Shown here piece by piece: positions 2,693 through 27,363 of a DNA stretch of 64,000 bases. The notes under the pieces were generated by a model, which had not been told where the DNA came from, ran no database searches, and saw only the letters and a program-made list of their open reading frames with translations. Source of the stretch: Halorientalis salina (GTDB lineage: Archaea > Halobacteriota > Halobacteria > Halobacteriales > Haloarculaceae); contig NZ_SOSC01000002.1 in the NCBI RefSeq assembly GCF_005049285.1, forward strand, positions 310,001-374,000. Direction: 5' to 3'. The position numbers and the translations under genes were made by a program. The first letter of the stretch is position 1; every line of letters begins with the position of its first letter.

Positions 2693-2718
2693 CGGGTTGA
2701 GGCGGATTCGAACCTCGC
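2693..2718 (-). repeat. Degenerate copy of the tRNA-Val 3' end
   Basis: The 26 nt here match the tRNA-Val(CAC) acceptor/T-arm copies at 2867 and 3001 with about four mismatches, in the same orientation. Between it and the next copy are two perfect hairpins, a CGAGAGAG/CTCTCTCG pair near 2750 and GAAAGGTG/CACCTTTC near 2774-2794. It looks like the oldest member of the array that ends in the intact tRNA. Confidence 0.55.
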
Positions 2719-2866
2719 CGAGACGTACTCACTCCGTTGTCGTCCGAGAGAGCTTCGCTCTCTCGTGATGACGAAAGGTGCGGAGCACCTTTCGAACCAC
2801 GCGCGACTCGTCTGGTTCAATCCTTCCAAGAACGGATTTGCGTCTCGCGAATCGTTCGGCGCAAAA

Positions 2867-3160
2867 TCAGTGGGTTGGGGCGGAGTTGAACCTCGGTCGC
2901 TTCCGTTCGCTCGCTATTGCTCGCTCACCTCCCGCTCCCTGCTTCAACTCTGCCAAACGCATTGCACACGCGCCGCTCGAAAGTGAGCGGCGCGAGAAAC
3001 TCAGTGGGTTGGGGCGGAGTTGAACCTCGGTCGCTTCCGTTCGCTCGCTATTGCTCGCTCACCTCCCGCTCCCTGCTTCAACTCCGCCAAACGCATCGCA
3101 CACGCGCCGCTCGAAAGTGAGCGGCGCGAGAAACTCAGTGGGTTGGGGCGGAGTTGAACC
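2867..3160 (-). repeat. Two 134-bp tandem units each beginning with a copy of the tRNA-Val 3' end
   Basis: The 26-nt block TCAGTGGGTTGG...GAACC occurs at 2867, 3001 and 3135; the last one is the 3' end of the real tRNA plus 4 nt of flank. The spacing is exactly 134 bp twice, and the two full units differ at only two positions. Inside each unit, GGCGGAGTTGAA (3013-3024 in unit 2) is answered by an inverted TTCAACTCCGCC (3077-3088), so the unit can fold back on its tRNA-derived part. A second hairpin, GCCGCTCG..CGAGCGGC type, lies near its end. No protein is encoded. This could be a mini-element that targets tRNA 3' ends or a local amplification. Confidence 0.85.
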
Positions 3161-3213
3161 GCCGACTTCCTCCGTGTGAAGGAGGTATCATAACCGGACT
3201 AGATCACCAACCC
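3139..3213 (-). tRNA. tRNA-Val (anticodon CAC)
   Basis: Seventy-five nt fold as a full cloverleaf. The acceptor stem pairs GGGTTGG with CCAACCC, discriminator A. The anticodon stem CCTCC/GGAGG encloses the loop TTCACAC, anticodon CAC for GTG codons. The T arm is GGCGG-TTCAACT-CCGCC. No intron is seen and CCA is not encoded. Partial copies of its 3' end lie downstream (2693-3134). Confidence 0.95.
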
Positions 3214-26269: not shown

Positions 26270-27151
26270 ATGTTACGGGGTCCGCCGGCCGAGCGTTCGC
26301 CCGCCGAATTGCTCGAGTTCGGCGTCGTCAATCTCGACAAGCCACCGGGTCCCTCCGCCCACCAGGTCGCCGCGTGGGTCCGCGACATGGTCGACGCCGA
26401 CCGCATCGCCCACGCCGGCACGCTCGACCCGAAGGTGACCGGTTGTCTCCCCCTCCTGCTCGACGACGCCGCCCGCATGGCACAGGTGTTCGACGACGCC
26501 GACAAGGAGTACGTCGCCGTCCTCGAACTCCACGGCCCCGCCCCGAACGACCTCCACGACGTGGTCTCGACGTTCGAGGGCCGGATCTACCAGAAACCAC
26601 CCCGGAAGAGCGCCGTCCGACGGCAGCTCCGCGTCCGCGAGATGTACGACATCGACGTGCTGGAAGTGCAGGATCGGCAGGCGCTGCTCCGGGTGCGCTG
26701 TGAGAGCGGCACCTACGTCCGGAAGCTCTGCCACGACATCGGCCTGGCGCTGGGAACCGGCGCGCACATGGGCCACCTCCGCCGGACGGCGACGGGGACG
26801 TTCGACGACACCTCGCTGGAGACCTTAGAGGACCTCGCGGACGGGCTCGGCTGGTGGGAGGACGACGACGACGCCACGGCGTTGCGCGAGGTCGTCCAGC
26901 CCGCCGAGCGCGCGCTCGTCGGCCTGCCGAGCCTGACCATCGCTCCGAGCGCCGCCCGAGAGGTCGCCGAGGGCGCGCCAGTGTACGCACCCGGCGTCAT
27001 CGACGCCAATCTCGGCGACGCAGACGTCGATAAGCGGCCGCTCGTGGCCTGCTACACGCCTAACGAGGCCGCCGTGTGTCTCGGCCGGTTAGTCGGTGAT
27101 CCCGACGCAGAGCAGGGGACCGTCGTGGAATTAGCGCGGGTCCTGGTGTAA
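26270..27151 (+). CDS. truB: tRNA/rRNA pseudouridine synthase Cbf5 (TruB family)
   Basis: 293 residues. The catalytic Asp is D53 in H-A-G-T-L-D-P-K-V-T-G; V-N-L-D-K-P-P-G and the G-T-Y-V-R-K-L-C-H-D-I-G motif are present, and a PUA domain fills the C-terminal 75 residues. Archaeal Cbf5 makes pseudouridine in rRNA with H/ACA guide RNPs and at tRNA position 55. It closes the adk-DUF106-cmk-truB block and is followed 47 nt later by tRNA-Pro, one of its possible substrates. Confidence 0.95.
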   Translation: MLRGPPAERSPAELLEFGVVNLDKPPGPSAHQVAAWVRDMVDADRIAHAGTLDPKVTGCLPLLLDDAARMAQVFDDADKEYVAVLELHGPAPNDLHDVVSTFEGRIYQKPPRKSAVRRQLRVREMYDIDVLEVQDRQALLRVRCESGTYVRKLCHDIGLALGTGAHMGHLRRTATGTFDDTSLETLEDLADGLGWWEDDDDATALREVVQPAERALVGLPSLTIAPSAAREVAEGAPVYAPGVIDANLGDADVDKRPLVACYTPNEAAVCLGRLVGDPDAEQGTVVELARVLV

Positions 27152-27198
27152 TCGCAAAACGAAGCGTTTAATCGGGGGACCCTCGTCTTCCCGAGTGC

Positions 27199-27269
27199 GG
27201 GACCGTGGGGTAGCGGTATCCTCGGCGCATGGGGTGCGTCGGACCTGAGTTCGAATCTCGGCGGTCCCA
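27199..27269 (+). tRNA. tRNA-Pro (anticodon GGG)
   Basis: 71 nt fold as a cloverleaf: acceptor GGGACCG/CGGTCCC with discriminator A, anticodon stem GGCGC/GCGTC, loop ATGGGGT with U33 and anticodon GGG, T arm CTGAG-TTCGAAT-CTCGG. No intron, CCA not encoded. An imperfect copy of its 3' end lies 106 nt downstream at the start of a palindromic element. Confidence 0.95.
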
Positions 27270-27363
27270 CTCAACTTTCTGTCGCGACCAATCCGGGAGC
27301 GACGGTATTGTGATGGGACATCGGAAGTCGCAGCCGTCGAACGGACGTGAGACGGACCGTCTT

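Follow-up and report, generated by a model that had tools for sequence, protein, structure and literature searches.

Our analysis suggests that the repeat array downstream of tRNA-Val(CAC) in Halorientalis salina is probably one case of an order-wide family of small (~80–180 bp), non-autonomous cassettes at haloarchaeal tRNA 3′ ends. Each cassette sits exactly between tRNA position 73 and the old flanking sequence, so the tRNA is left intact; near-identical hairpins, here termed h1 and M, occur at different tRNA genes, and cassette copy number varies between sister species.

The array lies in a 64,000-nt stretch of the Halorientalis salina genome (hereafter, the window) and runs downstream of the tRNA gene, i.e., toward falling coordinates (Table 1). 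The initial annotation, made from this single locus, had described three further copies of the tRNA-Val end at coordinates that proved correct to within a few bases; two are exact and the third carries four mismatches. The two full units, described as nearly identical, span 2863–2996 and 2997–3130, with 134 bp each and a measured identity of 98%. The inverted T-arm core that every unit was said to carry (TTCAACTCCGCC/GGCGGAGTTGAA) is exact in unit 1 and has one mismatch in unit 2, whereas it has diverged in unit 3. The transcript strand of the array folds 5 SD better than dinucleotide shuffles, and the predicted fold displays a normal tRNA, then a strong h1 and then the inverse paired with the next copy. 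Identical anatomy was found at further tRNA genes of the same genome and, taken together with the folding score, this recurrence argues against a chance repeat. Rfam returned no family besides tRNA for the units, yielding just the tRNA itself and sub-threshold overlaps with it, and the proteins adjoining the array are ordinary (HNH/zinc-ribbon, DUF7553, metallo-beta-lactamase, NmrA-like and arylsulfotransferase-like).

Table 1. Features of the array at tRNA-Val(CAC), in window coordinates.
Feature	Position	Strand	Remarks
tRNA-Val(CAC), intact host gene	3138–3213	-	ARAGORN; Rfam RF00005, E 6.6e-12
Source block, tRNA positions 52–73 (last 22 nt), GGTTCAACTCCGCCCCAACCCA	3139–3160	-	
Unit 1 insert: trailer start, h1 hairpin, anti-arm and M	3027–3138	-	
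Unit 1 h1 hairpin, CGCGCCGCTCACTTTCGAGCGGCGCG	3103–3128	-	
Unit 1 anti-T, GGCGGAGTTGAA, inverse of T-loop and T-stem 3′ strand	3077–3088	-	
Unit 1 M hairpin, CAGGGAG...CGACCGAG family	3027–3076	-	
Copy 1 of tRNA-Val 3′ end, exact, GGTTCAACTCCGCCCCAACCCA	3005–3026	-	
Unit 2 insert, tandem duplicate of unit 1; anti-T at 2943–2954	2893–3004	-	
Copy 2 of tRNA-Val 3′ end, exact, GGTTCAACTCCGCCCCAACCCA	2871–2892	-	
Unit 3 insert, older, other M family; anti-T GGATTGAACC at 2814–2823	2715–2870	-	
Double-hairpin repeat, separate, nested in unit 3 loop	2739–2800	-	Non-tRNA sites in genus too
Copy 3 of tRNA-Val 3′ end, 4 mismatches, GGTTCGAATCCGCCTCAACCCG	2693–2714	-	

Two side observations concern the window itself. 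The 62-bp double-hairpin repeat in the loop of the third unit (GTGGTTCGAAAGG..CCTTTCGTCATCACGAGAGAGC..GCTCTCTCG) recurs at seven more sites with no ARAGORN tRNA close by, both here and in relatives from the genus (L002, L013, L014, L021, L025, L026 and L029), where its stems show compensating changes. Besides, ARAGORN called a tmRNA at 26843–27270, around tRNA-Pro(GGG), which is almost surely spurious in an archaeon.

To place the array in a broader context, we scanned the genome of Halorientalis salina, with its 43 tRNA genes as called by Rfam, for the last 13 nt of each tRNA (at most 2 mismatches) at a distance of 20–600 nt downstream. A copy of the tRNA's own 3′ end was found downstream of 19 of the 43 genes and upstream of none, with the ends of other tRNAs occurring downstream in 17 of 1642 pairs (1.0%). 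In two sister genomes belonging to a different family of the order, own-end copies occurred at 20/42 and 22/42 tRNA genes—again, none upstream—and ends of other tRNAs in 18/1480 and 26/1494 pairs. A search of the genus with this stretch recovered similarly organized units behind other tRNAs, each bearing the end of its own tRNA. Across the host's order, a T-loop word facing its inverse 20–50 nt away (pattern GGANTYGAAN{20,50}TTCRANTCC) was present in 261 of 293 genomes, with up to 23 occurrences per genome, and the reversed pattern, used as a control, in 3 genomes; in the other orders of the phylum (124 genomes), this hairpin was at background (12 genomes versus 11 for the control). What had been noted at one locus is an order-wide feature. 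Its distribution is patchy: at tRNA-Val(CAC), only ~16 of 48 species carry a downstream copy, including members of Halorhabdus, Haloarcula, Natronomonas, Natribaculum, Natrarchaeobius, Natronoglomus and Natronolimnohabitans, and more than half of the tRNA genes in the genomes surveyed have no cassette. A comparison of unit number revealed differences at 17 of 41 loci between two sister genomes. T-richness after tRNAs did not differ between tRNAs with and without units.

Along the direction of the tRNA, the cassette is composed of a pyrimidine-rich trailer start, h1, an anti-arm, M and the 22-nt copy, with the trailer start (CTT/TTT) recurring after tRNAs and after copies. The copied block begins sharply at position 52 and stops just as sharply at the discriminator base 73 across 124 copies from 74 tRNAs, a count for which positions 61–73 served detection and positions 52–60 and 74 onward did not; identity of the block (positions 52–73) thus reaches the tRNA 3′ end, as an att scar would. 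The anti-T word is present in 124 of 167 units, and the reversed word in none. Pairing of anti-arm and copy through the acceptor in one rigid register gave no signal, and a gapped version revealed a two-part complement instead: the anti-arm complements its own tRNA at positions 54–65 and 69–73, with a gap at 66–68. This fit exceeds permuted pairings by 12 SD for positions 62–73 and by 6.4 SD for positions 66–73, with 63–65 and 69–73 above background and 66–68 not. The M hairpins sort into recurrent families, mismatches inside stems are conserved, and inspection of the consensus internal loops by eye disclosed no 3-4-3 bulge-helix-bulge (BHB) motif of the kind expected for an archaeal tRNA intron. 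As separate observations, an extra T-loop base occurs in 19 of 167 copies, mostly TTCACAATCC for TTCAAATCC, at ten different tRNAs and with the anti-T unchanged (e.g., L038, L045, L055, L060, L126, L140 and L141), and a second hairpin family (TAGCGAGGGACGAACG..GAGTCCCTCGAAGGCGAGC) immediately follows tRNA ends or copies but brings along no further tRNA copy (L186, L230 and L261).

Several properties of the inserts bear on the level at which their structure is maintained. The tRNA-sense strand of the inserts forms more stable folds than the antisense strand (means of −36.5 versus −32.7 kcal/mol, p = 7e-10), and this bias is not significant in flanking control DNA. In one M family, covariation reached 0.260 for the named structure versus 0.112 ± 0.011 for shuffled alignments, with slid versions of the structure failing; some sequences in this set had been picked by a pattern that forces the outer stem, the inner stems being unforced. 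Departures from the anti-T word keep G-U in 34 cases versus A-C in 6, whereas in the M stems the two kinds of departure are about equally frequent, and the counts in inner stems did not distinguish RNA from DNA. The hairpin loops within M are of the C-GNA-G type, and such loops are very stable in single-stranded DNA as well. A structural constraint at the RNA level thus appears likely rather than certain, because departures in M are equal and its loops would also be stable as DNA.

We also examined how strictly the cassettes are confined to tRNA ends. When M cores devoid of tRNA letters were used as queries, 39 loci were retrieved in many genera, 35 of which have a same-strand tRNA upstream, and 30 run directly into a copy of that tRNA's own end. 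Among the 4 loci without an upstream tRNA call, two are contig starts and one follows a long-intron tRNA missed by ARAGORN and found by Rfam. Insertion is clean, and the target duplication equals the 22-nt gene end, as MITE-like elements require. At tRNA-Val, the flank after the last copy is the one found directly after the tRNA in array-free species; at tRNA-Glu, one sister genome is empty and the other contains an 80-nt insert plus a 22-nt copy followed by the same flank, which is 92% identical over 400 bp between the two species. Since deletion between 22-nt repeats also yields an empty site, such comparisons leave gain unproved at any one locus. The arms follow the host tRNA, and no fixed terminal inverted repeats related to a transposon were found; the inserts of the counted units (40–180 bp) are too short for a gene, leaving no place for an integrase or other mobile-element cargo between copies, and no transposase, recombinase or RNA intermediate was identified.

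In a search of mobile DNA, the only near-full plasmid match was located inside a tRNA gene of a tRNA cluster; two further plasmid matches (H2 and H3) were discarded as 23-nt pieces with no tRNA nearby. A generic scan of viral contigs for T-loop palindromes retrieved unrelated sequences only, including a palindrome in high-GC phage contigs. In contigs of a viral collection (GC ~0.6; L168–L170, L174, L175, L178 and L180), a near-perfect palindrome of the type GGATTTGAACCATGTTCC..GGAACATGGTTCAAATCCATG was observed, with tRNA-like 3′ ends of both orientations on its flanks. On the Haloarcula halophila plasmid NZ_CP119561.1 (L265:1927–2069), a Cys-like tRNA gene has its T-arm interrupted by an M hairpin, and position 52 is once more the junction; this gene belongs to a cluster of ~20 tRNAs adjoining a TROVE/Ro60 gene. 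Another tRNA of the plasmid cluster bears a 55-bp hairpin insert that is absent from the related cluster of Haloarcula amylolytica (L102:3650–5224), a dense group of tRNA genes directly downstream of tRNA-Val(CAC).

The strangest fact of the analysis is that the sequence moves and both arms follow the new host. Units at different tRNAs form 386 similar pairs (at least 45 nt at ≥82% identity), a count of non-independent pairs, as many units are mutually related. On the right, similarity mostly ends 11–12 nt into the copy, which is the end of the universal GGTTCAAATCC; past this point, the host-specific acceptor begins. The Leu(TAG), Val(CAC) and Val(GAC) units share an almost identical h1 of ~70 nt, whereas the anti-acceptor, located between h1 and M, varies among them and matches the respective host. 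Among 27 pairs whose h1 is similar, identity came to 0.89 for h1, 0.66 for M and 0.46 for the anti-acceptor. A unit's own complementarity exceeded the swapped one in 23 of these 27 pairs, which are non-independent; by this crude score, the Leu/Val pair itself does not favour its own complement. The initial annotation had offered two interpretations, a mini-element that reproduces a gene end with each copy or an array yielding tRNA-like 3′ fragments, and the mini-element half fits the evidence well: empty sites are precise, the 22-nt block is fixed, hairpin cores are shared at many tRNAs and units are common to different tRNA loci.

On this basis, we propose that the cassettes could spread via the universal T-loop word GGTTCRAATCC, either by recombination or by template switching—a route we favour because copying onward from the host T-loop would supply the host acceptor free. 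Arrays may grow by unequal exchange between 22-nt repeats, which would also account for the two 134-bp units. The cassette would be transcribed as a pre-tRNA trailer in which the anti-arm pairs with the copy and the tRNA's own 3′ arm stays free, with the copy possibly acting as an additional 3′ end for tRNase Z. Anti-arms with mismatches might be re-fitted to the host either by selection on the fold or by hairpin-templated correction. Tentatively, and with more reserve than for the family as such, the cassettes could represent an undescribed class of self-retargeting elements that move between tRNA genes and have both arms rewritten to the new host by templating, with the tRNA 3′ end and T-loop as a universal docking site.

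Other explanations were weighed against this reading. The cassettes could be an RNA device serving the host, i.e., a structured pre-tRNA trailer that aids termination, 3′ processing (by mimicking a substrate of tRNase Z) or the regulation of tRNA supply and has an anti-arm able to pair with the tRNA 3′ arm or with the copy. The better folding of the sense strand next to the non-significant control flank, the excess of G-U over A-C in the anti-T word, the stem covariation, a tRNA-specific anti-arm that extends to the acceptor end and the recurrence of the trailer start after tRNAs and copies would all suit such a role, and a device of this kind would produce the same structural signal, a point that counts against the preferred reading. 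Against a host device stand the patchy occurrence at tRNA-Val(CAC), the unequal unit numbers at sister loci and the large share of tRNA genes that lack a cassette, and we consider it rather unlikely. A purely mutational origin—slippage producing tandem duplications and template switching correcting quasi-palindromes, with neither element nor function—accommodates the 98% identity of the two 134-bp units as well as the direct-inverted-direct layout, which template switching would generate. Slippage, raised in the initial annotation, does account for the doubling of the 134-bp unit at this locus, but not for the family: identical M and h1 families are shared by distinct tRNAs and extend across families of the order, correction would erase the conserved stem mismatches, and the units are strictly confined to tRNA 3′ ends and to one order. 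The sharing of M cores already disfavours this origin, and we regard it as improbable.

Much the same low probability is assigned to scars of tRNA-targeting integrases, whereby serial integration and deletion of proviruses or plasmids would have left att copies behind. At 22 nt, the block is as long as the tRNA duplication that marks a Haloquadratum provirus in tRNA-Ala (PMC3119063), yet the fixed order of h1, anti-arm and M between copies does not resemble a random provirus remnant. Moreover, the M core was found in neither viral contigs nor phage records, the window unit has no match in phages or plasmids, and no integrase is encoded among the five neighbouring proteins checked at the window array. 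A tRNA-primed retro-copy, in which the host tRNA would bind the anti-arm as a primer and itself be the source of the copy, would explain why the anti-arm is complementary to the tRNA 3′ end, like retroviral primer-binding sites. A copy of a mature tRNA should bear CCA, though, and none of the 167 inserts starts with CCA after position 73; because of this missing CCA, the explanation is largely refuted and was dropped as exceedingly improbable, and no reverse transcriptase occurs among the neighbouring proteins of the window array either.

The family appears to be undescribed: a limited literature search, with little coverage of subscription journals, returned no description of tRNA-end-copying cassettes. 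If the preferred reading is true, nearly one in two tRNA genes of a typical haloarchaeal genome terminates in a structured cassette that changes fast and copies both the gene's own end and the mirror image of that end, with implications for the ending and trimming of pre-tRNAs in archaea, for how a short non-coding element adapts to dozens of target genes and for why inserts favour tRNA ends. The family is easily searched for.

Among known systems, the repeats downstream of E. coli tyrT and the rtT RNA, reportedly described by Egan and Landy and by Boesl and Kersten, resemble the cassettes in forming tandem units after a tRNA gene, each with the 3′ end of that tRNA. The tyrT repeats are transcribed together with the tRNA. 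They represent one locus, whereas the cassettes occupy about half of the tRNA genes in the genomes surveyed, order-wide, and contain conserved hairpins common to different tRNAs; to our knowledge, the tyrT repeats have no tRNA-matched anti-arm. The t-elements and tRNA-like elements processed by tRNase Z are known from Haloferax. As in t-elements, a copy of the tRNA 3′ arm plus a trailer start constitutes a candidate processing site in the cassettes, judging by sequence, but the partner strand is an anti-arm gapped at 66–68 instead of the tRNA acceptor/T helix. Simple tandem repeats differ in that M and h1 are common to separate tRNA loci, so local slippage alone does not produce them.

The attL/attR sites of tRNA-targeting integrases (archaeal tyrosine recombinases, PMC8371274) likewise duplicate the tRNA 3′ end downstream (~22 nt), whereas the cassettes have no cargo, no integrase found, a fixed hairpin anatomy of 80–180 bp and an inverted tRNA-specific arm. 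Neither attachment-site duplications nor tyrT repeats are known to have a host-fitted inverted arm or genome-wide spread. Finally, the cassettes share with REP/BIME and with the MITE, PATE and SMR elements of Haloquadratum (PMC3119063) a short, palindromic, non-coding and patchy character, together with presumed mobilisation in trans; unlike those elements, the cassettes invariably target a tRNA 3′ end, fit the host gene with both of their arms and copy the tRNA end itself.
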